A stretch of 64,000 bases of DNA from Beggiatoa leptomitoformis (GCF_001305575.3 NZ_CP012373.2:1364001-1428000); one strand, 5' to 3'; shown: positions 1 through 13,800, numbered from the stretch's first letter. Numbers and translations are program-made. Notes: generated by a model from the sequence alone, not told the origin.

Positions 1-153
1 TTTAAACAGTCTGATAGTTTGTTTAATCTGGGATTCGCACTCGCTAGTGTGCAATGTTTACCGCATGGCGTTTATGTCGCAATGAATGGACAGGTTTTTA
101 CATGGGATAATGTTGTAAAAAATAAGCTAAAAGGCGTATTTGAGCGGGGATAA
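1..153 (+). CDS. C-terminal end of an unidentified protein (5' end outside window)
   Basis: Frame 1 is open from the first base to a TAA at 151-153, giving 50 residues that end in KLKGVFERG. The stretch contains LGFALASVQCLPHGVYVAMNGQ and reads like real coding sequence, not chance. The start lies upstream of the window. I recognise no family. It points rightward, towards the convergent ATPase gene that ends at 362, so the 208 bases between them are a convergent intergenic region. Confidence 0.5.
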   Translation, partial: FKQSDSLFNLGFALASVQCLPHGVYVAMNGQVFTWDNVVKNKLKGVFERG

Positions 154-361
154 AATATTTTAGGTTTACAAATAGTTTTTGTAACTTTGCTAAATAATAC
201 TGACTTGGATTGTGCTGTTAGTATGTTGAGCATAAAGTAATCGCGTCTTTCAATTATCCAGTTGATATTAAATCAGAATCATAATTATCAGGGCTGGAAA
301 CCCAAAAAACTGGAGTGGTAATTTAAGATTATATTACAGTATGTTACCGAATTCAGGTGAC
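154..361. other. Convergent intergenic region, no gene seen
   Basis: This AT-rich stretch separates the partial gene from the leftward ATPase gene. It contains an AT-rich GAATCATAATTATC near 277-290 that loosely resembles half of a Fur site. No gene starts here, so I do not call it an operator. No clear hairpin with a T run was seen. Confidence 0.4.
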
Positions 362-2449
362 TTAGCGGAACTGTTTATACCGTGCGCCTGCCATTGCATT
401 TAAGAGTATTCCTATTGTTGTCCCATTATGTAGAAGGGCAGAGAGTATGGGCGAAACTACACCCGACACCGCACCGATGGTTAAACCCGTATTAATCGCA
501 GTGGATAAGTTAAAATGCCAATGAATCAGTTGCATCGTTGCTTTACTCAGGGCTTTAGCTTCCACTATTGTTGCAAGGTCATCATTGAGTAAAACCACGT
601 CAGCCGTTGCACGTGCTAAATCTGCGCCTTTGGGCATTGCAATACCCACCATTGCCGAAATCAGTGCAGGTGCATCATTTACCCCATCCCCCACAAAAGC
701 AACTTTATATCCTTGTGCTGTCAGTTGTTTGACAACCTTGGCTTTATCTTCGGGTTGACAATCTGCGTAAACATGGTCGATACCCAGTTCTGTTCCTAAC
801 GCCATCGCTTTGTCATGTTGGTCACCTGTTAGCATGACAATTTGTTGTATGCCCAGTTGGCGGAGGTGGTGGATAACCGTTTTTGCTTCAGGGCGGAGGT
901 GGTCACGTAGGGCAACCACACCTAGCGGATGGTTATCCATTGCGATGTACAGCAGCGTTTTACCTTGTTTGAGCAGGTTACTAATGGTGCGGTTAAAGCG
1001 TTTGAAAGATACTTTTTCGTGTTCTTCTAAAAAGTGACGGCTACCAATTGCTACCCGTTGTCCGTTGACATGGGTTGTGAGTCCGTGCGCAATTAAATAA
1101 TCAACTTCTTCGTGTTCTATATGTCCTATTTTTTCTTGGCGGGCAAATTGAACAATTGCATTTGCAATGGGATGGGTTGCATGTTCTTCAATGGAGGCAA
1201 CCAGTGCAAGTAAACGGTCAGGTTGCCAATCTTTTGGGAAAAAAGTCTTTATATCAGTAACTTCTAATAAACCACTGGTTAGTGTGCCTGTTTTGTCAAA
1301 AACAAAGGTGTCTGCTTCAGCTAGGTTTTCAATGGCTTGTCCACCACGAAATAGTAGGCCTTGTTTCGCGCCATGATACATAGCGGATTTAATGGCAACA
1401 GGTGTACCCAGTTTGAGAGCGCAGGCATAATCCACAAGGAAAACTGAGGCAAGACGGTCTATATCGCGGGTCAGCAGGTAAACTGCTGTTCCTAATCCTA
1501 ATGTGATGTAAACCCGTTTATTGGCAAGGTCTTCCGCTAAACATTGGGTTTTTGATTGTTGTTGGAGTGAATTTTCAATGAAATGGGCAATGCGGGCGGT
1601 CGTGGTTTCTGAGCCAACACGGGTGACGTGAATTCTAAGCCGTCCTTCTTCAATTACCGTTCCAGATAAGACTTTATCACCCATTTCCTTACGCACAGCA
1701 AGCGATTCGCCCGTGACAGAGGCTTGATTGACAGCGGCATTTCCACCAATGACTTTGCCGTCAATGGCTATCATATCGCCTGTGCCAACTTCTATGCAGT
1801 CACCTGCAATAAGTTCACTACAGTCGATTTGTAGTAGCGCGCCATCGCGTTCTACCCATGCTTGAGTTGGCAGGGGTTTGAGGAGATAGCGCAGTAGTGC
1901 ATCGCTGTGTCGTTCGGTTTTGTGTTCTAAATATTCACCTAGATTAAGTAAACCTTGCGTTGCAACGGCGGTGAAGTATTCTCCACGGCTAGCAGCCAGC
2001 CCGATAGCTAAACTGTCTAAAACTTCTACTTTAATGCCACGGGTGAATAATACAGTCGTGCCATGCCATATTGTTGGGGCAACAACGGCATAAGTCAGTA
2101 AACGACGGGCGGTGGGTTTGAGCAGGGGCAAACTAAGTAAACTAAGCCCTGCTACAAAAATACCCGCAGGACTAGGTGTAACCTCGTTATATTCACCATC
2201 AGGCAGGGTAATGGTAATTGCATCAGCAAAGCGTTCTTTAAACCAGCGGAAAATAGCCATGCGATGTGAGGCTTGTCCATCATAATTAACGACCACACTT
2301 CCCGCGATGGGATTTAGGCGTACGCTCCGCACACCACTTAAACTCGATAAACTGGCTTCTAAATGGAGATGGTCTAGCTTGCGGTTGGCGAGTCGTATGG
2401 ATTTAAAGCGTAAGCGTCGTGGTAGTTCGTGGACAAGTTCGATAGACAT
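362..2449 (-). CDS. P1B-type heavy-metal ATPase with degenerate CPC motif (ferrosome FezB-like candidate)
   Basis: This 695-residue P-type ATPase has a short N-terminal HMA-like domain (about 1-80) with the motif HELPRRLRFKS. Transmembrane helices follow, then the actuator TGES (about residue 250), the phosphorylation site DKTGTLT (about 383) and GDGVNDAP (about 590), and two C-terminal helices. The ion-path motif reads DYACALKLGTP near residue 341, so the usual first Cys and Pro of CPC are missing. Classical Cu and Zn exporters keep CPC or SPC, so the substrate is probably different. The gene is last in a leftward block of HMA-like and small membrane protein genes that diverges from feo. That context suggests iron, as in ferrosome P1B ATPases; this is inference. 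A 256-base gap with a hairpin precedes it, so it may have its own promoter or a processing site. Confidence 0.85.
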   Translation of the reverse strand: MSIELVHELPRRLRFKSIRLANRKLDHLHLEASLSSLSGVRSVRLNPIAGSVVVNYDGQASHRMAIFRWFKERFADAITITLPDGEYNEVTPSPAGIFVAGLSLLSLPLLKPTARRLLTYAVVAPTIWHGTTVLFTRGIKVEVLDSLAIGLAASRGEYFTAVATQGLLNLGEYLEHKTERHSDALLRYLLKPLPTQAWVERDGALLQIDCSELIAGDCIEVGTGDMIAIDGKVIGGNAAVNQASVTGESLAVRKEMGDKVLSGTVIEEGRLRIHVTRVGSETTTARIAHFIENSLQQQSKTQCLAEDLANKRVYITLGLGTAVYLLTRDIDRLASVFLVDYACALKLGTPVAIKSAMYHGAKQGLLFRGGQAIENLAEADTFVFDKTGTLTSGLLEVTDIKTFFPKDWQPDRLLALVASIEEHATHPIANAIVQFARQEKIGHIEHEEVDYLIAHGLTTHVNGQRVAIGSRHFLEEHEKVSFKRFNRTISNLLKQGKTLLYIAMDNHPLGVVALRDHLRPEAKTVIHHLRQLGIQQIVMLTGDQHDKAMALGTELGIDHVYADCQPEDKAKVVKQLTAQGYKVAFVGDGVNDAPALISAMVGIAMPKGADLARATADVVLLNDDLATIVEAKALSKATMQLIHWHFNLSTAINTGLTIGAVSGVVSPILSALLHNGTTIGILLNAMAGARYKQFR

Positions 2450-2705
2450 TTGAAATCTCTAAAATTAGCTGTATATTTTTTATTAAAACTCTACATTTAA
2501 GATATCGGATAAAACAATAAAATAGGGTCGTGCTAAATAAGTCAGTTAGAAAACTATATATGCTTATCTTTTTCTGTTCAGTTCCGCCCAATTTTTATTT
2601 CTCGTTATTTAAGTATCTAACTATAAGGATTCAAAGCGGATGTTATATATCTGGATACCACTGCTCTGTGCAGTAGTATCTGTATTTTTGCCGACAAAGA
2701 TGAGG
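2450..2705. other. Intergenic region with imperfect hairpin between ATPase and upstream gene
   Basis: No gene is seen. Positions 2654-2680 form an imperfect inverted repeat (GATACCACTGC, five-base loop, GCAGTAGTATC). It lies just after the stop of the leftward Pro/Gln-rich gene. It could be an attenuator or processing hairpin between that gene and the ATPase gene; there is no strong T run in the leftward direction. Confidence 0.35.
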
Positions 2706-3308
2706 CTATTTTTGTGATTCTGATTTAATTTCTGCCTCTGCATCTTGGAAGCGTTCTTTTACTTCTTCAATGCCACCTTGTAAGGTATTCCAAACTTTAA
2801 CTAATGATTTTATTGTATTTTTTTGTAGTGATTCGTTGGTGAGTAAGAAGGTTAGTGCCGCACCTGTAATTGCACCCTTTAAAAACCGTTCATCACGGAA
2901 ATTAAAAAAACTCGCAAAACTTTGGTCATGTGCGCCCGTTACAGGTGCAGGGGCTGGAAGTGGCGCATTATAAACGGGTGGATAGCCATAATAGTGTGCG
3001 GGTACTTGTCCTTGAGGCATCACGCCTTGTTGTGCATAGTAGGGTGGAGGAACGGGTGAATAGTAGGCTTGTGCATATTGAGCGTGTAGATGGGCGTGAT
3101 GAGGGTCGCATCCTTGATATGGATTGTATTGTTGAGGATAGCCAACGGGTGGTGCATAACCACCTTGTGGGGCGGTCTGTTGTTGTCCATAGTTTGGTGG
3201 GGGCGGATAAGCAGGGGGCATTTGTGCGGTTTGTTGTGCAACAGGTGGTACAGGCGCGCCTGCTTGAATATTGGTTTGAGGGTTTTGTGGTATTTGTTGA
3301 TTATCCAT
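2706..3308 (-). CDS. Pro/Gln/Tyr-rich protein with C-terminal membrane segment (YtxH-like), ferrosome-associated candidate
   Basis: The protein has 200 residues. About 1-125 are low complexity, dominated by Pro, Gln, Tyr, Ala and Gly (repeated PPP, YAQ, PQG patterns), so likely disordered. A single hydrophobic Gly/Ala segment follows (FLKGAITGAALTFLLTN, about 138-155). The C-terminus is a charged amphipathic helix (IEEVKERFQDAEAEIKSE). The hydrophobic-plus-coiled layout resembles YtxH-type proteins. The start almost touches the stop of the upstream gene (3311), so they are co-transcribed. Its role is unknown. A disordered, membrane-anchored protein beside a P1B ATPase and HMA proteins would fit a scaffold or coat for an iron compartment, but that is inference. 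Confidence 0.75.
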   Translation of the reverse strand: MDNQQIPQNPQTNIQAGAPVPPVAQQTAQMPPAYPPPPNYGQQQTAPQGGYAPPVGYPQQYNPYQGCDPHHAHLHAQYAQAYYSPVPPPYYAQQGVMPQGQVPAHYYGYPPVYNAPLPAPAPVTGAHDQSFASFFNFRDERFLKGAITGAALTFLLTNESLQKNTIKSLVKVWNTLQGGIEEVKERFQDAEAEIKSESQK

Positions 3309-3310
3309 AA

Positions 3311-3631
3311 TTAAGCACCTTTTTCTTGATTAAGCGTATAAATTAATGCAGTTCCTGCAACAAACATGGTTGCAACCGTTGCAAGATTGGAATGATGCGG
3401 GCTAATATTTTGTCCTATTGCGGTTACAACGGCGGTTGCAAGCCCAGTTGCTACCCCTGCTTTTAATACTTCGCCAACAGGATTTTTGCGGTCTTCTGGG
3501 GATTTGCGCAGTTGTGTTGCAGTCGCTACCGTACTGCCTATCATTGCGCCAAGAAACACATTGTGAAGTAATGAGGTTGTTTGTGGTGCAAGGGGGTAGA
3601 AGGTTGGATAGTAGTGTTCTGGATAACTCAT
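3311..3631 (-). CDS. Small glycine/alanine-rich membrane protein
   Basis: The protein has 106 residues and three hydrophobic segments: about 22-40 (VFLGAMIGSTVATA), 56-73 (LKAGVATGLATAVVTAIG) and 82-99 (LATVATMFVAGTALIYTL). The small-residue spacing (GxxxG and AxxxG) suits tight helix packing. The N-terminus is Tyr/Pro-rich, like its downstream neighbour. The stop of the upstream HMA-like gene (3631) overlaps its start by one base, so translation is coupled. I do not recognise a named family. Its place inside an ATPase-HMA block suggests a membrane component of the same compartment or transporter. Confidence 0.75.
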   Translation of the reverse strand: MSYPEHYYPTFYPLAPQTTSLLHNVFLGAMIGSTVATATQLRKSPEDRKNPVGEVLKAGVATGLATAVVTAIGQNISPHHSNLATVATMFVAGTALIYTLNQEKGA

Positions 3632-4008
3632 TATTTTTTATCCTTTAGAGGCATAAGTGGTAGTGCGTAAAGTAAGTCTATTTCTGTGAGTATGTGGGGA
3701 ATTTCTGAGGAAGAAGCCGATAACAAACGTTCCCACCATGTTGCTTGGATGCGTTGTGGGTCATAAACAATGAGCAGTGAAGCGGCGGGTTTATTGATAC
3801 GTAATTCGAGAATGCCTGGTAAAGTTGCGAGCTTGGTTTTTAGGAAGTTGTCGGATAAATTTGGCAAAATTGCCAATATGCCCGGTAGTAAGCGTAAGCG
3901 CAATCGTCCGTGAATATGATGAACTACCTGTAAATGGGGCAACACTTCTGGCAACCATTGCCAGTCTATGGGCTGTATTGGCGTGGACATATTTGTGTAA
4001 AAGGACAT
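3631..4008 (-). CDS. Small HMA-like (heavy-metal-associated type 2) protein
   Basis: The protein has 125 residues. The core reads VHHIHGRLRLRLLPGIL, then a helix, then ILELRINKPAASLLIVYDP. This is the beta-alpha-beta pattern of an HMA fold, but the metal-binding CxxC is absent and a HxxGRLR motif is present. The same motif recurs in the neighbouring protein (IHHIPGRLRVR) and in the ATPase N-terminus (HELPRRLRFK). The start could instead be the ATG at 3990; neither has a strong Shine-Dalgarno. It lies ten bases after the upstream gene, so it is in one leftward operon. Confidence 0.75.
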   Translation of the reverse strand: MSFYTNMSTPIQPIDWQWLPEVLPHLQVVHHIHGRLRLRLLPGILAILPNLSDNFLKTKLATLPGILELRINKPAASLLIVYDPQRIQATWWERLLSASSSEIPHILTEIDLLYALPLMPLKDKK

Positions 4009-4018
4009 CGTGCGTTAT

Positions 4019-4384
4019 TTATAAAAAGGCTTTTGCAAATGAAAGCATGGATGTTTCTAAACTCTTTTTAACAACAGCACCAAATAATGCATTGCCCAAT
4101 AATGCGCCCGTGTGGTTAGCAGCACTGCGTTGTGACAAGGCGGTCGTCAACCCGCTTTCTAAACAACCTACTTTGTGAAGTTGATATAGAATATCGTCCC
4201 CCGTCAAACAGCTAGGGTCATAATGGACTAATAAACTTCCTGTTTTTTGATTCATTTGACAACTTTCTATTCCGTTTAATTGCATTAGCAATACTTCTAA
4301 TTCGGCAAATTGACACGTTGCATACCGCAATTTGTCTGTCCGCACTCGCAACCGTCCGGGAATATGGTGAATATAGGCACTCAT
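4019..4384 (-). CDS. Small HMA-like protein, first gene of the leftward iron block
   Basis: The ATG at 4384 is preferred because GAGGAG lies a few bases upstream; a longer in-frame extension to 4429 has no such site. The 121-residue product starts MSAYIHHIPGRLRVRTDKL and continues with a beta-alpha-beta pattern (GIESCQMNQKTGSLLVHYDP), i.e. an HMA-like domain without CxxC. The C-terminal 40 residues are small and hydrophobic (NHTGALLGNALFGAVVKKSLE), perhaps a membrane-associated helix. It diverges from feoA, and a Fur-box-like site lies in the shared promoter region. Confidence 0.8.
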   Translation of the reverse strand: MSAYIHHIPGRLRVRTDKLRYATCQFAELEVLLMQLNGIESCQMNQKTGSLLVHYDPSCLTGDDILYQLHKVGCLESGLTTALSQRSAANHTGALLGNALFGAVVKKSLETSMLSFAKAFL

Positions 4385-4469
4385 AACTGTTCTCCTCTTA
4401 CAAAAAATAATCACGTAAAAACAATTCATCTGGCTTTAATATAGATTCTAAAGGGGATTATTTGCAAAC

Positions 4470-4488
4470 GCAAGTGAGAATCATTATT
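4470..4488. promoter_or_regulatory. Fur-box-like operator between divergent iron operons
   Basis: The 19 bases GCAAGTGAGAATCATTATT match 14 of 19 positions of the classical Fur consensus GATAATGATAATCATTATC, counted by eye. A second palindromic element, GATAATTATC, follows at 4496-4505. The site lies between the leftward HMA gene (start 4384) and feoA (start 4535), so one Fur dimer array could repress both operons when iron is plentiful. Confidence 0.6.
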
Positions 4489-4534
4489 ATTACAAGATAA
4501 TTATCTAACCATATAATCTATACAGGACATCGTC

Positions 4535-4804
4535 ATGCTGATGAACACACAAACATCGCTGCACAGTTACCCGCTCAACTTAGCACCAGAAGGGGAATGG
4601 CTGATTGTGAGTGCGATTAAAGCGGATAAACAAATTCATGCACGTTTAGCTGCGATGGGAATTGTTGAAGGCTGTGAGCTACAAGTGCTTAATCGACAAG
4701 CAACAAATGGTGGTTTTGTCGTGCGTTGTGGAGAAACGCGTTGGGCCATTGATAAAGGTATCGCCTATCGGATTTTTGTTACCACAGCCCCTGCTAAATC
4801 ATAG
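4535..4804 (+). CDS. feoA: FeoA-family ferrous iron transport accessory protein (first copy)
   Basis: The protein has 89 residues with the SH3-like FeoA core: HARLAAMGIVEGCELQVLNR, then GGFVVRCGETRWAIDKGIAYRIFV. FeoA is a small cytoplasmic partner needed for FeoB activity. AGGA lies about eight bases before the ATG. It is the first gene of feoA-feoA-feoB-feoC, directly downstream of the Fur-box-like site. Two tandem FeoA proteins before FeoB is a known arrangement. This copy has a 15-20 residue N-terminal extension compared with the second. Confidence 0.92.
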   Translation: MLMNTQTSLHSYPLNLAPEGEWLIVSAIKADKQIHARLAAMGIVEGCELQVLNRQATNGGFVVRCGETRWAIDKGIAYRIFVTTAPAKS

Positions 4805-4819
4805 GAGTTACCATTTAAT

Positions 4820-5053
4820 ATGATGCGTTTAAATGAGTTAAAGATTGGTGAAGATGGCGTGGTGAAAGGGTTTGATAAAAGTGTTCCGGGATATCGTCAA
4901 AAATTATTAGCCATGGGCTTAACACCCGGAACCGCTTTTACCATTACCCGTTATGCCCCTATCGGTGACCCAATAGAAATTCGAGTGCGCGATTTTGCAC
5001 TCAGCCTACGTAAAGATGAAGCAAACGCAATTTTAGTAGAAAAGAGGGCATAA
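4820..5053 (+). CDS. feoA: FeoA-family ferrous iron transport accessory protein (second copy)
   Basis: The 77-residue protein has the full FeoA pattern: MRLNELKIGEDGVVKGF, YRQKLLAMGLTPGTAFTITRYAPIGDPIEIRVRDFALSLRKDEA. Its stop overlaps the feoB start by one base (TAATG), indicating translational coupling. This is the copy closest to canonical FeoA in length and sequence. It starts 15 bases after the first feoA ends, with TAGGAG upstream. Confidence 0.95.
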   Translation: MMRLNELKIGEDGVVKGFDKSVPGYRQKLLAMGLTPGTAFTITRYAPIGDPIEIRVRDFALSLRKDEANAILVEKRA

Positions 5054-7368
5054 TGGCTAAATGGACTGTCGGGGTGATTGGTAACCCAAACTGTGGTAAG
5101 ACCACACTTTTTAATGCTTTAACAGGCTCTAAACAGCGGGTTGGTAACTGGCCTGGTGTTACCGTAGAACGCAAAACGGGTTACTACCGTTATGCAGATC
5201 AAAATATTGAATTAGTTGATTTACCTGGTATTTACTCTATAGATACCACGCCCGGACATACTTCATTAGATGAAGCTGTTGCTCAAGAATATACGCTTTC
5301 TGGCGAAGCGGATTTAATCATTAATATTATTGATGCCTCTAATTTAGAACGGAATTTATATCTCACAACGCAATTATTAGAAATGCACGTCCCCTTGTTG
5401 GTTGTGTTAAACATGATGGACATGCTGGCAGAACGTGGCACAACCATCGATATTGCCAAACTTTCAGAACAATTAGGCACACCTGTTATTCCTATCGTTG
5501 CCGCGAAAACAGAAGGTTTAGAATACCTTAAACAAAAAATTAATGAACATTGTGCGCGAAAAGAATTACCCCTTCATAAACCCAGCTATCCTGCTGTTTT
5601 AGAAGATGCATTACAAACATTAATTCCCCATGTTAAAACCATTCTCCCTGCGGAACATCAACCTTATCACCATTGGTTTAGTCTAAAACTCTTAGAAGAC
5701 ATCAATATCATTCAGCAACCCTTACCCTCTAGCTTGCATGAGCTGGTTAAACAACAGCAAATCATTGTCAAAGACAATTTAGATGAAGATATTGATATTA
5801 TCATCGCGGATGCACGTTATAGCTTTATCAACACAATTAACGACATCGCGGTTAAGAAAAACCGACAATTACACCGCTCGCTGTCTGACAAAATCGATAA
5901 CATCGTCCTCAATCGTCTTTTGGGAATACCGATTTTTTTAACTGTCATGTACTTAATGTTTTTATTTACGGTGAATATTGGCGGTGCGTTTATTGATTTC
6001 TTCGATATTCTCTTTGGCACGCTGTTTGTTGAAGGCTTTAGTCACTTACTCAGCTATTACGGTGTAAGTGATTGGATAGTCACTTTATTTGCCAATGGTA
6101 TAGGGGGAGGTGTGCAAGTGGTTGCGACTTTTATCCCTGTCATTGCATTTCTCTTCCTCTTTCTCTCCATGCTTGAAGACTCTGGCTATATGGCACGGGC
6201 AGCGTTTGTTATGGATAGATTTATGCGCTTTATCGGCTTACCAGGAAAATCCTTTGTACCCATGATTGTTGGCTTTGGCTGCAATGTCCCTGCCATCATG
6301 TCTGCACGCACACTAGAACACCGTCGTGACCGTTATTTAACTATCCTAATGAATCCCTTCATGTCATGCGGTGCGCGCTTGCCCGTTTATGCACTCTTTG
6401 CAGCAGCATTTTTTCCCGTTGGCGGACAAAATATTGTTTTCGGCTTATATCTAATCGGTATTCTCGTTGCGGTACTCACGGGTTTATTAATGAAACATAC
6501 CTTATTCAAAGGAGAAGCGGGCTACTTCGTCATGGAATTACCCGCTTATCATTTACCAACGGCAAAAAATATTCTCCTGCACACATGGGAACGACTAAAA
6601 GGCTTTGTCGTGCGGGCGGGTAAAGTGATTGTACCGATGGTTATTGTGATTAACTTTCTCAACTCATGGGGTATAGACGGCTCATTTGGTAAAGACAACA
6701 CAGACCAATCCGTTTTAAGCACAATCGGGCGTACTCTCACCCCTGCTTTTGAACCTATGGGCATTCGTGAAGATAACTGGCCAGCGGTTGTTGGCATTTT
6801 TACAGGTGTTTTGGCAAAAGAAGTTGTTGTTGGCACATTAGATGCGATTTATTCCCAAGAAGCCCAAGGCGAGACCATTAAAGAAGTGAAACCTTTTGAT
6901 TTATTGGCGGGTATTCAAAGCGCATTTGCTACCATTCCAGATAATTTAATATCTGTTTTCAGTAATTTACTTGACCCATTAGGTTTTCAAGCAGCAGAAT
7001 CTGATTCCCAAGAAACCAGTAGTGGAACATTTGCAGAAATGCGTCAACACTTTGATGGACAAATTGGTGCATTTGCTTTCTTACTATTTATTCTGATGTA
7101 TTTTCCTTGTACAGCGGCAACCGCAACCATTTATCGAGAAACCAGCGCGGGCTATGCGGTTTTTGTTGCTAGCTGGACAACAGGAGTGGCTTATTTCTCC
7201 GCAACTTTATTTTATCAAATAGCCAGTTATGCAGCACATCCTCTGCAAACACTATTTTGGGTTGGTTTATTGTTCAGCTTTCTTGCTTTTACCATTTTTA
7301 TCTTATACCTGCTAGGACAAAAACGGGGGCAACCGCTCGTACTTGCCAACTCGGAACAAACGGGCTAA
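5053..7368 (+). CDS. feoB: FeoB ferrous iron transporter (GTPase-permease)
   Basis: At 771 residues it is the usual length for gammaproteobacterial FeoB. The N-terminal G domain shows G1 GNPNCGKTT (10-18), the G3 motif DLPG (about 55), G4 NMMD (about 120) and a helical GDI domain to about 270. The membrane half has two Gate regions, including GFGCNVPAIMSARTLE and NPFMSCGARLPVY, and the C-terminal half contains FPCTAATATI. It imports Fe(II) across the inner membrane. It is translationally coupled to feoA. Confidence 0.98.
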   Translation: MAKWTVGVIGNPNCGKTTLFNALTGSKQRVGNWPGVTVERKTGYYRYADQNIELVDLPGIYSIDTTPGHTSLDEAVAQEYTLSGEADLIINIIDASNLERNLYLTTQLLEMHVPLLVVLNMMDMLAERGTTIDIAKLSEQLGTPVIPIVAAKTEGLEYLKQKINEHCARKELPLHKPSYPAVLEDALQTLIPHVKTILPAEHQPYHHWFSLKLLEDINIIQQPLPSSLHELVKQQQIIVKDNLDEDIDIIIADARYSFINTINDIAVKKNRQLHRSLSDKIDNIVLNRLLGIPIFLTVMYLMFLFTVNIGGAFIDFFDILFGTLFVEGFSHLLSYYGVSDWIVTLFANGIGGGVQVVATFIPVIAFLFLFLSMLEDSGYMARAAFVMDRFMRFIGLPGKSFVPMIVGFGCNVPAIMSARTLEHRRDRYLTILMNPFMSCGARLPVYALFAAAFFPVGGQNIVFGLYLIGILVAVLTGLLMKHTLFKGEAGYFVMELPAYHLPTAKNILLHTWERLKGFVVRAGKVIVPMVIVINFLNSWGIDGSFGKDNTDQSVLSTIGRTLTPAFEPMGIREDNWPAVVGIFTGVLAKEVVVGTLDAIYSQEAQGETIKEVKPFDLLAGIQSAFATIPDNLISVFSNLLDPLGFQAAESDSQETSSGTFAEMRQHFDGQIGAFAFLLFILMYFPCTAATATIYRETSAGYAVFVASWTTGVAYFSATLFYQIASYAAHPLQTLFWVGLLFSFLAFTIFILYLLGQKRGQPLVLANSEQTG

Positions 7369-7442
7369 AAACCATTTATGTCTGCACCCCTGATTTATCT
7401 TGTATCTGATACAGTGTGCGACATTGTTGTTTAGGAGAAACT

Positions 7443-7655
7443 ATGACACTAACAACACTAAAACTCTATTTAATTCAACGTAACCAAGTAACACTTACTG
7501 ATTTAGCCAATCATTTTAATCGTGACCCAGAAACGGTAAAAGCAGCATTAAGCCATTGGATACAAAAAGGCAAAGTCAAACACAATATTGCTGAAGCCTG
7601 CCAAAAAAGCTGTTGTAAAAATAATGGGATGGATATTTATGAATGGTTGGGATAA
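7443..7655 (+). CDS. feoC: FeoC-like winged-helix protein with Cys cluster
   Basis: The ATG at 7443 is chosen because AGGAG precedes it; the in-frame start at 7416 lacks a site. The 70-residue protein has a winged-helix N-terminal half (LIQRNQVTLTDLANHFNRDPETVKAALSHWIQKGKV) and a C-terminal ACQKSCCK with three Cys. This matches FeoC, which binds an iron-sulfur cluster and modulates FeoB. It is the last gene of the feo operon, 74 bases after feoB, and is followed by a perfect hairpin. Confidence 0.88.
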   Translation: MTLTTLKLYLIQRNQVTLTDLANHFNRDPETVKAALSHWIQKGKVKHNIAEACQKSCCKNNGMDIYEWLG

Positions 7656-7668
7656 TACGTAATTAAAG

Positions 7669-7697
7669 GGATAACATCGCCTTGAGCGATGTTATCC
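7669..7697 (+). terminator. Perfect 12-bp hairpin after feoC
   Basis: GGATAACATCGC, loop CTTGA, GCGATGTTATCC form a perfect 12-bp stem 13 bases after the feoC stop. No T run follows, so it may be an mRNA-end stabiliser or a weak terminator. Similar GGATAGC/GCTATCC-type hairpins occur after the genes ending at 33053 and 36177. Confidence 0.6.
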
Positions 7698-7768
7698 TAG
7701 CGGTGTTAGTCGCGCGATTTGAAAAAAACCATCTCTAACGCCTTGATGTTTACTTTATAATGAAAGCA

Positions 7769-8662
7769 TTATTTTGTAGCATACAGAAATATAATAAAAT
7801 CACCGTAATAATGACGAGTTGCAGATTGTGCAATAAAAATATCAACCCCGCTAAAACCAATCGCATAAAGTAAATCAACAAGGTCAGCTCCGAAATCATG
7901 GAAGCATAAAATTCCCTCATTACCAATAAAATTATGGTGATAAGCAGGTTCTAATAAATGCTTGACTTGACCCTCTGTATTATCAATATAAGCTCTTGTT
8001 ACTGTAGATTTTAATCTTGGATTAATCGGCGTTGATAAAAGGGTATGTCCGCCTTGTTTAAGCGTTCTATAAATCTCTGTAAGGGCAAGTTTATAGTCAT
8101 TTACGTGTTCAAGTACATCAAATGATAGAATTAACCCCAAACTATTGTCTGAAAAAGATAATTTGGTTATATCCTCATGAGATACTCTTTTTTCTTGGTA
8201 AGGATAAAGATGACCACCGATTTTATCTTCACCCAAATATTCACTGCCTATTAAGGCTGGAATCTTCTCTTTTAAAGCGAAATACAAGGGTGTAACCGCT
8301 TCTGTGGCATACGCCGATTTTATACCTGTTAAAATAAGCCTATCGACTAAGTCAACCGTTGCACGTGTTCTAGCATTGAAATGGCATTCTTGGCAAATAG
8401 CATCTTCTCGCCAGTTAATAAACATGCCATTTTTTATTGCATGATGAAGTGAATGGGAGAAAATCATTGCGGTCATCTTGTTACAAACACTACACCATCC
8501 ATTAACAGAAGATATATTATTAGCAACGATTTGTTGTTCTAAATCCATCGTCGACAGAAAATTAAACGCCTGAAATGTTTCTACCTTAAAAAAAGAATTT
8601 TCCTTTTTTGTGGAGATTGACTTTTTTAAGAATTTAAATAAGTTTTTCATATTATTTATCAT
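7769..8662 (-). CDS. SAM-dependent methyltransferase with N-terminal zinc-finger-like CxxC pairs
   Basis: The 297-residue protein has an N-terminal region with two CxxC pairs (CSVC and CQEC, about 58 and 90). A class I methyltransferase core follows, with LILSFDVLEHV and LKQGGHTLLSTP typical of the Methyltransf_11 group. The SAM-binding GxGxG loop is poorly conserved (ALIGSEYLGEDK). An ATG four codons further in is an alternative start. It is divergent from sdhE and convergent with feoC, so it is a single-gene unit. Such CxxC-plus-methyltransferase proteins often accompany glycosyltransferases, but none is adjacent here; the substrate is unknown. Confidence 0.75.
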   Translation of the reverse strand: MINNMKNLFKFLKKSISTKKENSFFKVETFQAFNFLSTMDLEQQIVANNISSVNGWCSVCNKMTAMIFSHSLHHAIKNGMFINWREDAICQECHFNARTRATVDLVDRLILTGIKSAYATEAVTPLYFALKEKIPALIGSEYLGEDKIGGHLYPYQEKRVSHEDITKLSFSDNSLGLILSFDVLEHVNDYKLALTEIYRTLKQGGHTLLSTPINPRLKSTVTRAYIDNTEGQVKHLLEPAYHHNFIGNEGILCFHDFGADLVDLLYAIGFSGVDIFIAQSATRHYYGDFIIFLYATK

Positions 8663-8786
8663 TGTATTAGTTTTTTAAAAGCTATCACTTTGCTATAAAA
8701 TTAGCAATATCCTGCTTCAGGATAAGAATAACGGGTTTATATTTGATTTTATTATTGATATTTGCAATTTACAAATAGGATTTTTT

Positions 8787-9026
8787 ATGAGCAATCTCTC
8801 AAAACTCAAATGGCATTGTCGACGTGGGATGAAGGAACTCGACATTGTTTTTACTCGGTATTTAGATAATGCCTATCCTTCAGCTTCTACTGAGGAAAAA
8901 GCCTTATTTGAGGCTATATTAGACTGGCAAGACATGGAAATTTATAATTATTTGTTGGAACGTGCTACACCGACTGACCATCAAGTTGTTAATTTTTTTA
9001 ATAAATTACGCCAATTCAGTATATAA
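8787..9026 (+). CDS. sdhE: SdhE, FAD assembly factor of succinate dehydrogenase
   Basis: The 79-residue protein carries the SdhE (YgfY/Sdh5) signature RGMKELD at 13-19, followed by an all-helical fold with DWQDMEIYNYLL. The RGxxE motif is required for flavinylation of SdhA. It starts with an ATG after AGGAT. The next gene, a MipA-like protein, begins 29 bases later, so they may share a transcript although their functions are unrelated. Confidence 0.93.
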   Translation: MSNLSKLKWHCRRGMKELDIVFTRYLDNAYPSASTEEKALFEAILDWQDMEIYNYLLERATPTDHQVVNFFNKLRQFSI

Positions 9027-9055
9027 CGCGCTGCGTTATTCATAAGGTAAAAAAT

Positions 9056-9823
9056 ATGATACGACACAAAATACTGGGTTTATGCGGATTTTTACTGCTG
9101 CTAAACCCCGTTTATGCTGCCTCACCAACAGGAACAGGCTGGAAAGGCAGTATTGGGCTTGGTGTGTTGTGGAAAGCAGAACCCTATAAAGAAACGGATG
9201 ATACTGTTTTACCTATTCCCTTGATAAATTTAAAGTACGAGCGTTTTTATATTCAGGGTTTAACAACGGGTTATAAGCTAATCGATGATTTACAGGGGAG
9301 TGTCGACTTGATTGCCAAACCACGGTTAGAAGGCTATGACGCAGGTGATAGTGATTATCTAGCGGGTATGGAAGACCGTGATAAGTCGTTAGATATGGGG
9401 TTAGCCGTCAATATGCAGTTTGGGCGGATTATTTTAAATACAACGGCTGTGTCTGACGTGTTAGGGAAGAGCAACGGGCAAGAGTTGAGCGCGAAAATTG
9501 GATATAACCTTGTATTTGGCGGTGTAGGACAGTCTGTTTTACGGCTCACGCCTACGGTTGGGGTCATGTGGTTAAGTGCAGATATGGTTGATTATTATTA
9601 TGGTGTTCGTGCAGAAGAAGCGCGTTTAGACCGTCCGTCCTATGTTGGAGAATCTAGCTTTAATTTAACGGCAGGATTAAGCGCGAATTATTTTTTTATG
9701 GCAAATTCGGGAATTACGGCGGGCATTAATTACGAGTTATTGGGCAGTGAGATTGCGGATAGTCCTTTGTTAGAAAAAGATTATACGGTCAGCATTTTTG
9801 CAGGATATGCTTGGCGGTTTTAG
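9056..9823 (+). CDS. MipA/OmpV-family outer membrane protein
   Basis: The 255-residue protein has a signal peptide (about 1-21, cleavage after VYA). The rest is made of alternating beta strands ending in an aromatic residue (YAWRF), as expected for an outer membrane beta barrel. The pattern GLGVLWKAEPYKETDDTVLPIPLINLKYERFYIQG matches MipA/OmpV proteins. Members act as murein-synthesis scaffolds or small porins; which applies here is unknown. Confidence 0.85.
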   Translation: MIRHKILGLCGFLLLLNPVYAASPTGTGWKGSIGLGVLWKAEPYKETDDTVLPIPLINLKYERFYIQGLTTGYKLIDDLQGSVDLIAKPRLEGYDAGDSDYLAGMEDRDKSLDMGLAVNMQFGRIILNTTAVSDVLGKSNGQELSAKIGYNLVFGGVGQSVLRLTPTVGVMWLSADMVDYYYGVRAEEARLDRPSYVGESSFNLTAGLSANYFFMANSGITAGINYELLGSEIADSPLLEKDYTVSIFAGYAWRF

Positions 9824-9856
9824 CCTAATCGCTTGATTATTTTATTAATATATTTT

Positions 9857-10783
9857 TTACCAAGGTTGGTGTGGTGGTGGCAATGAGGTTTTTTCCGCGT
9901 CTAACTGAAACTGTTGTTGTAACAATTTAGCAGGGTTGTCTGTTACGCGATTTAACAAAATATCTGCCAGCATTTCTGCTTCGTTGGCATGATTTGCGGG
10001 GGTTGCAAAAGAAGAGAGTGCTGCTTTTTGCGCGGGATTATTGGTCTCTTCGCCCTGCTCCGCTTGTTGGTTTTTACTGTCATCAATGGGGGGATTGTCT
10101 GGCGGTGTCACGGGTTGGGTTAGCGGTGTCTCTCCACCTTGACGTTGTTTATCACGGTTTACGTCGGGCGGTGTTGCGGATTTTTGTCCTTGTTGTTTGG
10201 CTTCTAGCTCGCCTTGTTGTCCGCCTTGCTTGTCGCCGATGTTATCGCTGCCCCCTTTTGCATTATCCTGTTTTTGTGTGTCTTGGCTTTTTTGTCCTTT
10301 ATCAAGTTCGCCGCCTTTTTTATCGCCTGTTTCTGGTTGCGGTTGTTGACTTTTATCGGCACCGCCATTGTTGGGCTGTTGCGGTTTTTCTAGGCGTTTT
10401 TGGGTGAGGGCGAGATTGTGTTGTGCATCCGTATGGGTTGGGTCTGCACTTAACACTTTTTGATAGGATAGTAGGGCTTTATCGTATTCACCCAGTTGAT
10501 AATAGGTATTGCCTAAATTGTATTCTGCATCGATTAAACGGGTCGGGGTTTCTACCGTTGCAAAGGCTTTAACGGCTTGTTCAAAATTCCCCGCCCGATA
10601 TAAGGCAATGCCTTGATTATAAGGGTCAGTAAACAGCGAAGCGGCAACCGCATAATGACCTTGCGCAAACGCATCCAAGGCTTGTTGGTCGGCATTGTGA
10701 AAATGCAGTTGCCAAGCCGAGGCGGTTTGTGCAAAACCCACGGCAGATATGACGCAAATAAGGCGTATTTGCTTTTTTAACAT
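9857..10783 (-). CDS. Periplasmic TPR protein with low-complexity linker (BatC-like)
   Basis: The 308-residue protein has a signal peptide (1-23, TASA). About three TPR units follow (30-140), with AEYNLGNTYYQLGEYDKALLSYQKVLSADPTHTDAQHNLAL. About 140-260 is a Gln/Lys/Gly/Asp-rich linker and the C-terminus is a short conserved region. BatC/BatE proteins have this plan, but no BatA or BatB gene is adjacent. It lies 20 bases downstream of the large kinase gene on the same strand, so the two are probably co-transcribed. Confidence 0.75.
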   Translation of the reverse strand: MLKKQIRLICVISAVGFAQTASAWQLHFHNADQQALDAFAQGHYAVAASLFTDPYNQGIALYRAGNFEQAVKAFATVETPTRLIDAEYNLGNTYYQLGEYDKALLSYQKVLSADPTHTDAQHNLALTQKRLEKPQQPNNGGADKSQQPQPETGDKKGGELDKGQKSQDTQKQDNAKGGSDNIGDKQGGQQGELEAKQQGQKSATPPDVNRDKQRQGGETPLTQPVTPPDNPPIDDSKNQQAEQGEETNNPAQKAALSSFATPANHANEAEMLADILLNRVTDNPAKLLQQQFQLDAEKTSLPPPHQPW

Positions 10784-10803
10784 TATGTTTTAGCCGATTA
10801 ATC

Positions 10804-13800
10804 TTAACGTTGTTTTAATACCAGCAGGGTGATGTCATCGGCAATATTTTGTTTGCCAATGTGTTGTCGTACATCAGCAATGACAGCTTGTTGTATCTCG
10901 GCAGCACTTTGATGCCAATAACGGCTGACAATTGTGCATAGGCGTTGAATGTCATAGTTGGTCTTTGTTACATTGCGGGCTTCGGTAATCCCATCCGTAT
11001 ATAATACGATGCCGTCCCCTGATTCTAGTTGAATTTCTCGTTGTGCAATCCAAGGGGAAATATCTGCCTCCATGCCCACCATAAATCCTAAGCCTAGCGT
11101 ATCAATGCGTTCAATATGCCCATTTTTCCGCACCAGTAGCACTTCTTCATGTTGTCCTGTCAGTTGCAATTTGCCGTCGTGGTAATCTAACAGTGACAAA
11201 GTAAGATTTTTGTCGGTTTGCATCCGTTGGGCATTTTGGTAAATCGTTTGATTGACAATATTTAGGAATTCTTTTGGATTATTGATACCCGCTAGCAATA
11301 ATGCCCGCACGGTGGTTTGTACCATGAGCATTAACACGCCGCTTTCTAGCCCGTGTCCTGTGACATCGCCAATCCCGATTTTTACTCGTCCGTCATGGTT
11401 GAGTATTTCGTAGTAATCACCACCAACTTCTACAGCAGGTTCCATAAAGCAGGCAATATCTAGTGCTTCAATCTGTCGTAGTTCTTCTTCGCGGGGTAAA
11501 ACCATTTGTTGTAGTTGGCGCGCAACGCTTAATTCAGCACCCATGCGTAAATTTTCAGCTTTTAGTTGTTCATTTAAGGCGGTGATTTGTTGGTTGGCCG
11601 CTGCTAGCTGTGCCGTCCGGATTTCAACTTTTTGTTCTAAAGTGCGGTATAGCAGTGCATTTTCTAGTGAAATAGCGGCTTGCGAAGAAAGCATTTCTAA
11701 GAGTTTTAAACGGGCTGGGGTAAACGCGCCTTCTGTTACATTGTTTTCTAAGTATAAAATCCCCATCATTTTTCCCTGATGAATAATGGGGTTACATAAA
11801 ACAGATTTGAGTTGTTGTTGTTGAACGTAGCTGTTTTGTACATACATGCCTTCTTGGCGTGCGTTGGCTAGAACAACGGCTTCGCGCGTCCGCATGACGT
11901 AGTTGATAATCGCGGTAGGTGTGCGTCCTTCTATGGGTAACGATTGTAAAACGGTTACTTCTTCACTTTTAAACGCGCCTTCTGCCTCAATTAACCATTG
12001 TCCATCTTGTTTTAAAATCAGCAGTCCGCGCTCTGCACCCGCATTTTCAATGACAATGTGCATCATTTTTTCTAGTAATTGGCTGAGTACCATTTCACCA
12101 GACAGGGCTTGCGTGGCTTTCATAACGCTTTCTAGGTCTAACCAATTTGATGTACGGATGCGTGTTCGCGTACTCATCATCACGGTAGCCGTGCTGGTTA
12201 AGCTGTCAATAGTTGGAATGACAGGTGCTGTTTTAGCAGTAAGCCATTGTGGATATTTGGCTTCTAGCTGGCTGACTTTGGCTAATGCACCCCATTGTTG
12301 ATAGTGGTATCGTGCTTCTTGTAAATAGGTTTGGGCGAATTTATCCATGCCTTGCATGAGGTAGAAACGTGCAGCAAGTTCGTAGGCAAGGGCTTGTTCT
12401 TGAATATAATCATTTTCTCGCGCGTTTTGAATCGCATTTTCATAATCTTGCATTGCTTTCCAACGGTTACCCAATACCCGTGCTAACTCAGCCTCTACTA
12501 ACAAAAATTTGTGTAGATGGTTCATGGGTGCGTGGTCTGCGAAATGTTTTAGTTGTTGTTGATTCGCTATTACTTTATTGAGAAGAACTGTTTGGTGTTT
12601 TGCATCACGGAGTGTGTACACTTGTAGGCAAGTGAGTGATTCATAGAAATTTGCTACGGGAACAGACACCATGGCGAACATGCCGCCTTTATGCTGTTCT
12701 GCAAGTGTTGCATTTTCTAGGGCTTTCTCGTAGTCATCAAATAGATAGCAGAGTATTAGTGTATTAACATAGAAAGCTGCTAATGCGGATTGATTATTTG
12801 TGTTTTGCAGGAGGGGCAACATCTGTGATTGATTGAATGCTTGTCCATCCAAGTATTGTGGCAAAGATTCTGCCTGCCCTAACAGGTTAAATACGGCTTG
12901 TCGAAACGAACTTTGCCAACGAATCCCTGTTTCTGCTCGTATGCGTTGCATACCATCATTGTAACAGGTCATTTGTCGCGCTAATTCTTGCAGTTCTGTG
13001 CCTGCAAAATAAGCGTTGCAGGAGTAGAAAAAGGCGTTATATCCTGCGTATTCTAAATCCCCTGTTTCTAAACCACTTTGATAGCCGATTTCTAGATTAG
13101 GCAGTGTGTCTTTTAGTGCTTGCTTAAAATGCCAAACATGACCATTAACCACTTCAAGGGTTTTGGATTTAAATTTGGTATCCCCTGATTTTTCTAGCAG
13201 TTTGGTCGCTAGTTGTCCAAAACGATAACCTGTGTCTAAATCGTTAGTAACCCCACAAAGTAACAGCGCGTAACACGCATACACATAGGCGGATTCGCTG
13301 GTGTTACCATGCGTAATGGATAAATCAACCTGACGCAAGATAAGCAATAAGAATAATTTGGGTCTGCCAATGTAGGCAGCCGCTGTAGATTTTGCGACAA
13401 CACGCATGATAGCTAATTTGGTTTTATCTAGCATTTCGGGCAAATTGACCAAGTCCTCAATCGTTGTTGTCGTATAACGAGCCTGCAATTCTCTTAATGC
13501 GGTTTGAAATGCCTCATCGTCTGGATAACTAGGAAGTGCCAAACCTAAACGGTTTAAAATTTCTAGTGCCGTATCTAGGGTTTCTTGTAGTTTCCCTTCG
13601 GACATATAGCCATGAATTTTGCTTTCATACGCACTTGCCATGTCCACAGGTGTTTTAGCATGTTTAGTGATAAGCGTAAATAATACATCTAGTTGTTTAA
13701 AATCGCCTATTAAACTGGCCATTTCTGCGGCTAATGAATGGAGTTCTAACGTGAAGTTATAGTGCGTCTTCCATGTGTCTTGCTCTAATAATTGCAATCC

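Follow-up and report, generated by a model that had tools for sequence, protein, structure and literature searches.

Ferrosomes, small iron stores that bacteria enclose in a membrane and that appear as electron-dense Fe/P granules, have so far been shown in few species; experimentally tested FezB proteins come from D. magneticus, S. putrefaciens, C. difficile, and R. palustris CGA009. R. palustris CGA009 makes them from six fez genes, RPA2333-2338 (PMC12016538), which are co-regulated with iron genes (PMC6879726). The fezAB genes of C. difficile (CD630_05910-05920), encoding an ATPase and a small protein, are repressed by Fur and serve in iron storage (PMC12574912; PMC6311696), and a FezC-type, DUF4405-like cytochrome has been reported for D. 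magneticus (PMC11334425). The proteins named as required in C. difficile are FezA and FezB alone (PMC12574912). For this reason, FezC is not counted as essential here. The features by which we define a ferrosome locus were taken, alongside secondary papers, from what Grant et al. 2022 and Pi et al. 2023 reportedly describe.

The window analyzed here, a 64-kb stretch of the Beggiatoa leptomitoformis genome (NZ_CP012373.2, 1364001 to 1428000), carries on its minus strand, at positions 362 to 4384, five conserved genes that diverge from a feoA-feoA-feoB-feoC operon. A preliminary description had proposed a ferrosome-type locus coupled to feo, and the clade of the ATPase, the homologies of the small proteins, and the recurrence of the feo linkage all support this proposal. 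Judged from its sequence, the locus is probably (with a probability of roughly 0.78) a fez gene cluster that forms one divergent unit together with feo. The coordinates of the five genes and of the four feo genes were borne out, and the features are as follows.

362..2449, minus strand, FezB-like P1B(-6) ATPase, 695 aa, with an N-terminal HMA-like domain, the arginine motif HELPRRLRFK, and DYACALKLGTP, not CPC, in M4
2706..3308, minus strand, YtxH-like fez protein, 200 aa, with a disordered Pro/Gln/Tyr-rich N-terminus (about 1-128) and a highly conserved C-terminal domain, RDERFLKGAITGAALTFLLTNESLQK...EEVKERFQDAEAEIK
3311..3631, minus strand, Gly/Ala-rich three-helix protein, 106 aa, with profile homology to the equivalent gene of an alphaproteobacterial six-gene cluster
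3631..4008, minus strand, HMA2, HMA-like domain without CxxC, motif HHIHGRLRLR
4019..4384, minus strand, HMA1, HMA-fold domain without CxxC, motif HHIPGRLRVR, with a C-terminal tail (low-confidence helix)
4472..4492, no strand assigned, Fur-box-like site in the fez/feo intergenic region, AAGTGAGAATCATTATTATTA, 16/20, with equivalent sites in relatives
4535..4804, plus strand, feoA (first copy), FeoA, 61 bits
4820..5053, plus strand, feoA (second copy), FeoA, 82 bits
5053..7368, plus strand, feoB, ferrous iron transporter, TIGR00437, 642 bits
7440..7655, plus strand, feoC-like regulator, FeoC, 65 bits

Gene order and sequence of the five-gene block are kept in related genomes. Measured against the nearest relative, dN/dS was 0.055 for the ATPase, 0.065 for the Gly-rich protein, and 0.12 for HMA2, while for HMA1 dN was 0.09 and dS was saturated. 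The conserved order and sequence, together with the purifying selection implied by the low dN/dS values, indicate that the five ORFs are real genes and not chance ORFs. A scan of positions 1-12000 of the window for RNA families returned none.

Comparison with known fez clusters

The locus resembles the six-gene cluster of Rhodopseudomonas in the clade of its ATPase and in the order HMA, HMA, Gly-rich, YtxH-like, ATPase; five of the six genes have homologues in the window, in the same order. The Rhodopseudomonas block consists of exactly six genes and is kept in four genomes of the genus. Its genus, gene number, and content lead us to infer that it corresponds to the CGA009 fez genes, and the link from the window to tested ferrosome makers rests on sequence likeness to these same-genus clusters. 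Four differences stand beside the likeness. A gene of about 107 aa between HMA2 and the Gly-rich gene of Rhodopseudomonas has no counterpart in the window; the arm of the YtxH-like protein is long and Pro/Gln/Tyr-rich in the window but short and Lys-rich in Rhodopseudomonas; the C-terminal His hairpin of the Rhodopseudomonas HMA1 is missing from the window protein; and, unlike the Rhodopseudomonas cluster, the window block diverges from feo. Such differences (one of six genes and the hairpin missing, a separate sub-branch for the ATPase) could mean that specificity has shifted, and that in this lineage a fez-derived cluster stores a metal other than iron (Mn, Co) or a mixed metal-phosphate. 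This is very unlikely, however, given that the divergent partner is the Fe2+ transporter gene feoB, with a Fur-type site between.

The C. difficile fezAB system, compared by description only, has two reported genes versus five in the window. The block holds no gene for a cytochrome of the FezC (DUF4405-like) type, and the DUF4405 matches obtained genome-wide all fell below the cut-off. Another close system is a disordered-arm type of fez cluster, represented by L173 of the genus Rhodopseudomonas and by L056 and L057 of the Pseudomonadota, in which HMA1 has a similar tail and the YtxH-like protein a Pro-rich arm. The C-terminal domain of the L173 protein is near-identical to that of the window (LLTNDSVQKN...EEMKERFRDAEAEI), but in these three loci the arm differs in length and is rich in Gly/Trp or in His, and no feo genes adjoin them within the stretch examined.

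In the Rhodopseudomonas set, the two smallest genomes (G682 and G684; 4.1 Mb; the genus of L103) lacked the ATPase, in agreement with the report of a reduced-genome strain without a complete fez set (PMC12016538).

The ATPase

The preliminary description had recognized a P1B ATPase with a lost CPC motif, and DYACALK indeed occupies the CPC position of the protein encoded at 362-2449. Its DKTGT, TGE, and GDGxNDAP motifs are all present, and it contains no CxxC. The pattern D[YFH][SA]C..K..TP replaces CPC in every cluster ATPase checked; across the whole clade CPC is absent, and CxxC is missing from nearly all members. In addition to a quick tree, a careful one was built from 31 sequences over 573 columns; in it the window ATPase and all cluster ATPases, including those of the six-gene clusters of Rhodopseudomonas, Magnetospirillum, and Azospirillum and those of Aeromonas, Vibrio, and Arcobacter, formed one clade with 100/99 support. 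Outside this clade fell the CopA and ZntA proteins of E. coli and an S. meliloti ATPase with a TPCP motif, which is encoded on pSymA and is presumably Nia by motif only. The phylogeny that had been named as a check on the proposal did not group the ATPase with Cu, Zn, or Ni exporters. The window family makes up a distinct sub-branch of the clade, apart from the Rhodopseudomonas six-gene branch and closer to certain Pseudomonadota, Vibrio, and Cereibacter. Following the literature, we take this ATPase type to be P1B-6 and equate it with FezB. Fe(II) is given as the substrate of P1B-6 ATPases (PMC7558416).

NCBIfam assigns the window ATPase to a general subfamily only, and relatives are automatically named “heavy metal translocating P-type ATPase,” labels that would suit a Cu/Zn/Cd/Ni resistance pump with degenerate metal domains lying beside feo by chance. 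Such a pump is extremely improbable in view of the clade-wide absence of CPC and near absence of CxxC, the position of the clade apart from CopA, ZntA, and the TPCP-type ATPase, and the recurrence of both the feo linkage and the Fur-box-like sites. Classification as a Cu- or Zn-exporting P1B-1 or P1B-2 ATPase was rejected, as these need CPC in M4 and usually an N-terminal CxxC, and the window ATPase has neither. A search for a solved P1B-6 structure returned only Cu/Zn/K-type and remoter P-type relatives, and scanning viral contigs with the ATPase gave no match.

Other P-type ATPases with a non-CPC M4 (e.g., SCNFSEIIRISSP and INADFGTGIRVAAP) group on a supported branch of their own close to the fez clade; its members are L006, at about 642 kb in the same genome as the window, and L027, L028, L030, L034, and L035. 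Relatives in the window family can have ten or more P1B-like ATPase matches per genome. A Deinococcus plasmid ATPase (L149, 1809-3842), which has VDISC in M4 and adjoins a DUF6110 gene, branches just outside the fez clade and may be of the C. difficile fezAB type.

The small partner proteins

The locus singles out three kinds of small partner protein: a CxxC-less HMA fold, a disordered arm, and a three-helix protein. Consistent with the initial reading of two HMA-like proteins without CxxC, the motif is missing from both, and both matched Pfam HMA_2 (HMA1, 42.0 bits; HMA2, 29.2 bits; cut-off 30). In the structure model of HMA1, residues 1-75 adopt an HMA-like fold at high pLDDT, and Foldseek matched the model best to metallochaperone/HMA domains in the PDB (E 0.003-0.06, probability about 1). 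An arginine motif is common to the ATPase N-terminus (HELPRRLRFK), HMA2 (HHIHGRLRLR), and HMA1 (HHIPGRLRVR); according to Grant et al. 2022, the motif PGRxRxR is said to mark fez proteins, both the FezB N-terminus and its partners. Because they lack CxxC and share the H..PGRLRxR motif, HMA1 and HMA2 are probably docking partners of FezB and not classical metallochaperones. In alphaproteobacterial HMA1 proteins (L103, L074, L072, L075), the C-terminal hairpin carries two His, like the DUF4405/FezC cytochrome type, and a weak Pfam match was obtained in L055.

The glycine-rich protein was predicted by AlphaFold to consist of three helices (17-42, 51-76, and 83-105), as had been proposed, with moderate confidence (pLDDT 69, pTM 0.43). 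A structure search with this model gave no significant match, and profile-profile alignment (hhalign) with the alphaproteobacterial counterpart gave 98.7% at E 4e-16. The protein also matches the magnetosome family MamC of NCBIfam weakly (19.3 bits, E 0.001, against a cut-off of 100); with no other magnetosome genes seen nearby, a magnetosome locus was rejected.

Residues 1-128 of the protein encoded at 2706-3308 contain 29 Pro, 21 Gln, and 15 Tyr and merely 3 charged residues. This composition agrees with the “Pro/Gln/Tyr-rich membrane-anchored protein” of the preliminary description, but the anchor is weak, the hydrophobic stretch at about 142-158 lying below the usual transmembrane threshold. 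The dN/dS ratio is 0.013 in the C-terminal 72 residues and 0.34 in the disordered part, and relaxed constraint is confined to the latter. The protein resembles YtxH/DUF5132 with a match below the cut-off; DUF5132 was rejected as a name on that ground and because the family occurs in 1 of 299 genomes of the phylum. Profiles built from the proteins of the window family placed a YtxH-like protein directly upstream of the ATPase in nearly all loci. The suggestion that the disordered protein was not described for known fez clusters could not be upheld, as its C-terminal domain is the YtxH-like component of nearly all clusters examined. The arm measures about 128-185 aa in the window family, and several other clusters have disordered Pro/Gly/Tyr/His/Trp-rich N-termini that are shorter or of other composition. 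Since other lineages, among them one Rhodopseudomonas-genus genome whose cluster is of this subtype, have similar arms, the arm is a feature of a subtype and not a new component. A second YtxH-type protein, Pro/Met/His-rich, is encoded in the clusters of a Vibrio (L054, 5337-6062) and a gammaproteobacterium (L059, 9861-10580).

Linkage to feo and the Fur-box-like site

The block was described as diverging from feo with a Fur-box-like site between, and this arrangement was confirmed: the site at 4472-4492 agrees at 16 of 20 positions with the consensus AAATGATAATNATTATCATTT and is the only site scoring 16/20 or better in the 64 kb. The consensus was written after a first look at the sites in relatives of the window, for which it is descriptive; the four betaproteobacterial loci with an HMA1-type gene near feoA were scored later with the consensus unchanged, and in all of them the best site of the locus sits between these two genes. 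The fez clusters of Vibrio, Cereibacter, and Azospirillum gave no good site with this consensus.

Of 80 named fez loci, together 1.3 Mb long, 10 encode a full-length FeoB; by our estimate this is far above expectation, given that a genome of several Mb has one or two feoB. An HMA1-type gene lies less than 400 bp from feoA in the window, in three relatives (L037, L039, L042), and in four other lineages: Gallionellaceae, Hydrogenophilus, Thiobacillus, and one further betaproteobacterial locus. In most of these cases the gap between the two genes also holds the best Fur-box-like site of the locus. As the linkage recurs outside the window family and the best Fur-box-like site lies between the two operons, the coupling of fez and feo is not a matter of local chance. 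The divergence, together with the HMA1-feoA adjacency in the four lineages, gives a testable hint at the routing of Fe2+ from import to organelle. Since fez and feo share one putative iron-sensing site, import and storage are probably switched on together.

The same arrangement bears on whether the ATPase serves a compartment at all. P1B ATPases are mostly exporters, the P1B-5 ATPase Nia has a reported role in Fe/Ni detoxification (PMC4932525), and a vesicle membrane is indistinguishable from the plasma membrane from sequence alone; the block could in that case encode a plasma-membrane Fe2+ exporter that relieves the overload brought in by feo, with no internal compartment. We consider this unlikely, because the shared Fur-type site before feo implies that the genes are expressed when iron is short, a condition under which export would do harm, and because the small partners are homologous to proteins of the Rhodopseudomonas six-gene cluster.

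Proposed mechanism

Read as a fez cluster, the locus suggests a sequence of events in which Fe2+ as the substrate, the formation of vesicles, the roles of the small proteins (including that of a coat), and the binding of Fur are what we infer. Under iron shortage, Fur would leave the shared intergenic region and both feo and fez would be expressed. FeoB would bring in Fe2+ while the fez operon builds the compartment, and FezB, a P1B ATPase that carries DYAC in M4, would move Fe2+ into a membrane vesicle. This vesicle may be shaped or coated by the Gly-rich protein of three helices together with the YtxH-like protein and its disordered arm, and HMA1 and HMA2 probably dock FezB or bridge FeoA/FeoB and FezB. 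As a counterpoint to a storage role, two ferritin-family proteins are encoded in the same genome, which is thus not short of iron storage. It is tempting, but speculative, to go further and assume a distinct fez subtype organized as a single Fur-controlled divergent unit of import and storage, in which HMA1, whose gene adjoins feoA in several beta- and gammaproteobacterial lineages, would take Fe2+ from the Feo complex and physically pass it to FezB, while the YtxH-like arm would condense into a coat from which the ferrosome buds or on which it nucleates; we regard the chance of this as small.

Distribution

Within the window's own family, 8 of 37 genomes, its own included, carry the ATPase at 56% identity or more, and the small genes remain with it; in one of the family loci (L043), the ATPase frame is interrupted. 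This ATPase type is rare: under strict E-value limits, 7 of 299 genomes sampled from the phylum had it and 2 of 369 from the class, both counts including the window's own genome. Relatives from Alpha-, Beta-, and Gammaproteobacteria and from Campylobacterota share the order of HMA-type gene(s), Gly-rich, YtxH-like, and ATPase genes. Searching the window's own genome (4,265,317 bases) revealed no DUF2202/rubrerythrin-like gene. Ferritin-like genes of this kind lie in or beside the fez genes of three relatives (L038, 145-660; L039, 7484-7957; L040, 9985-10416), of an Arcobacter (L053, 5069-5752), and of 14 further named loci.
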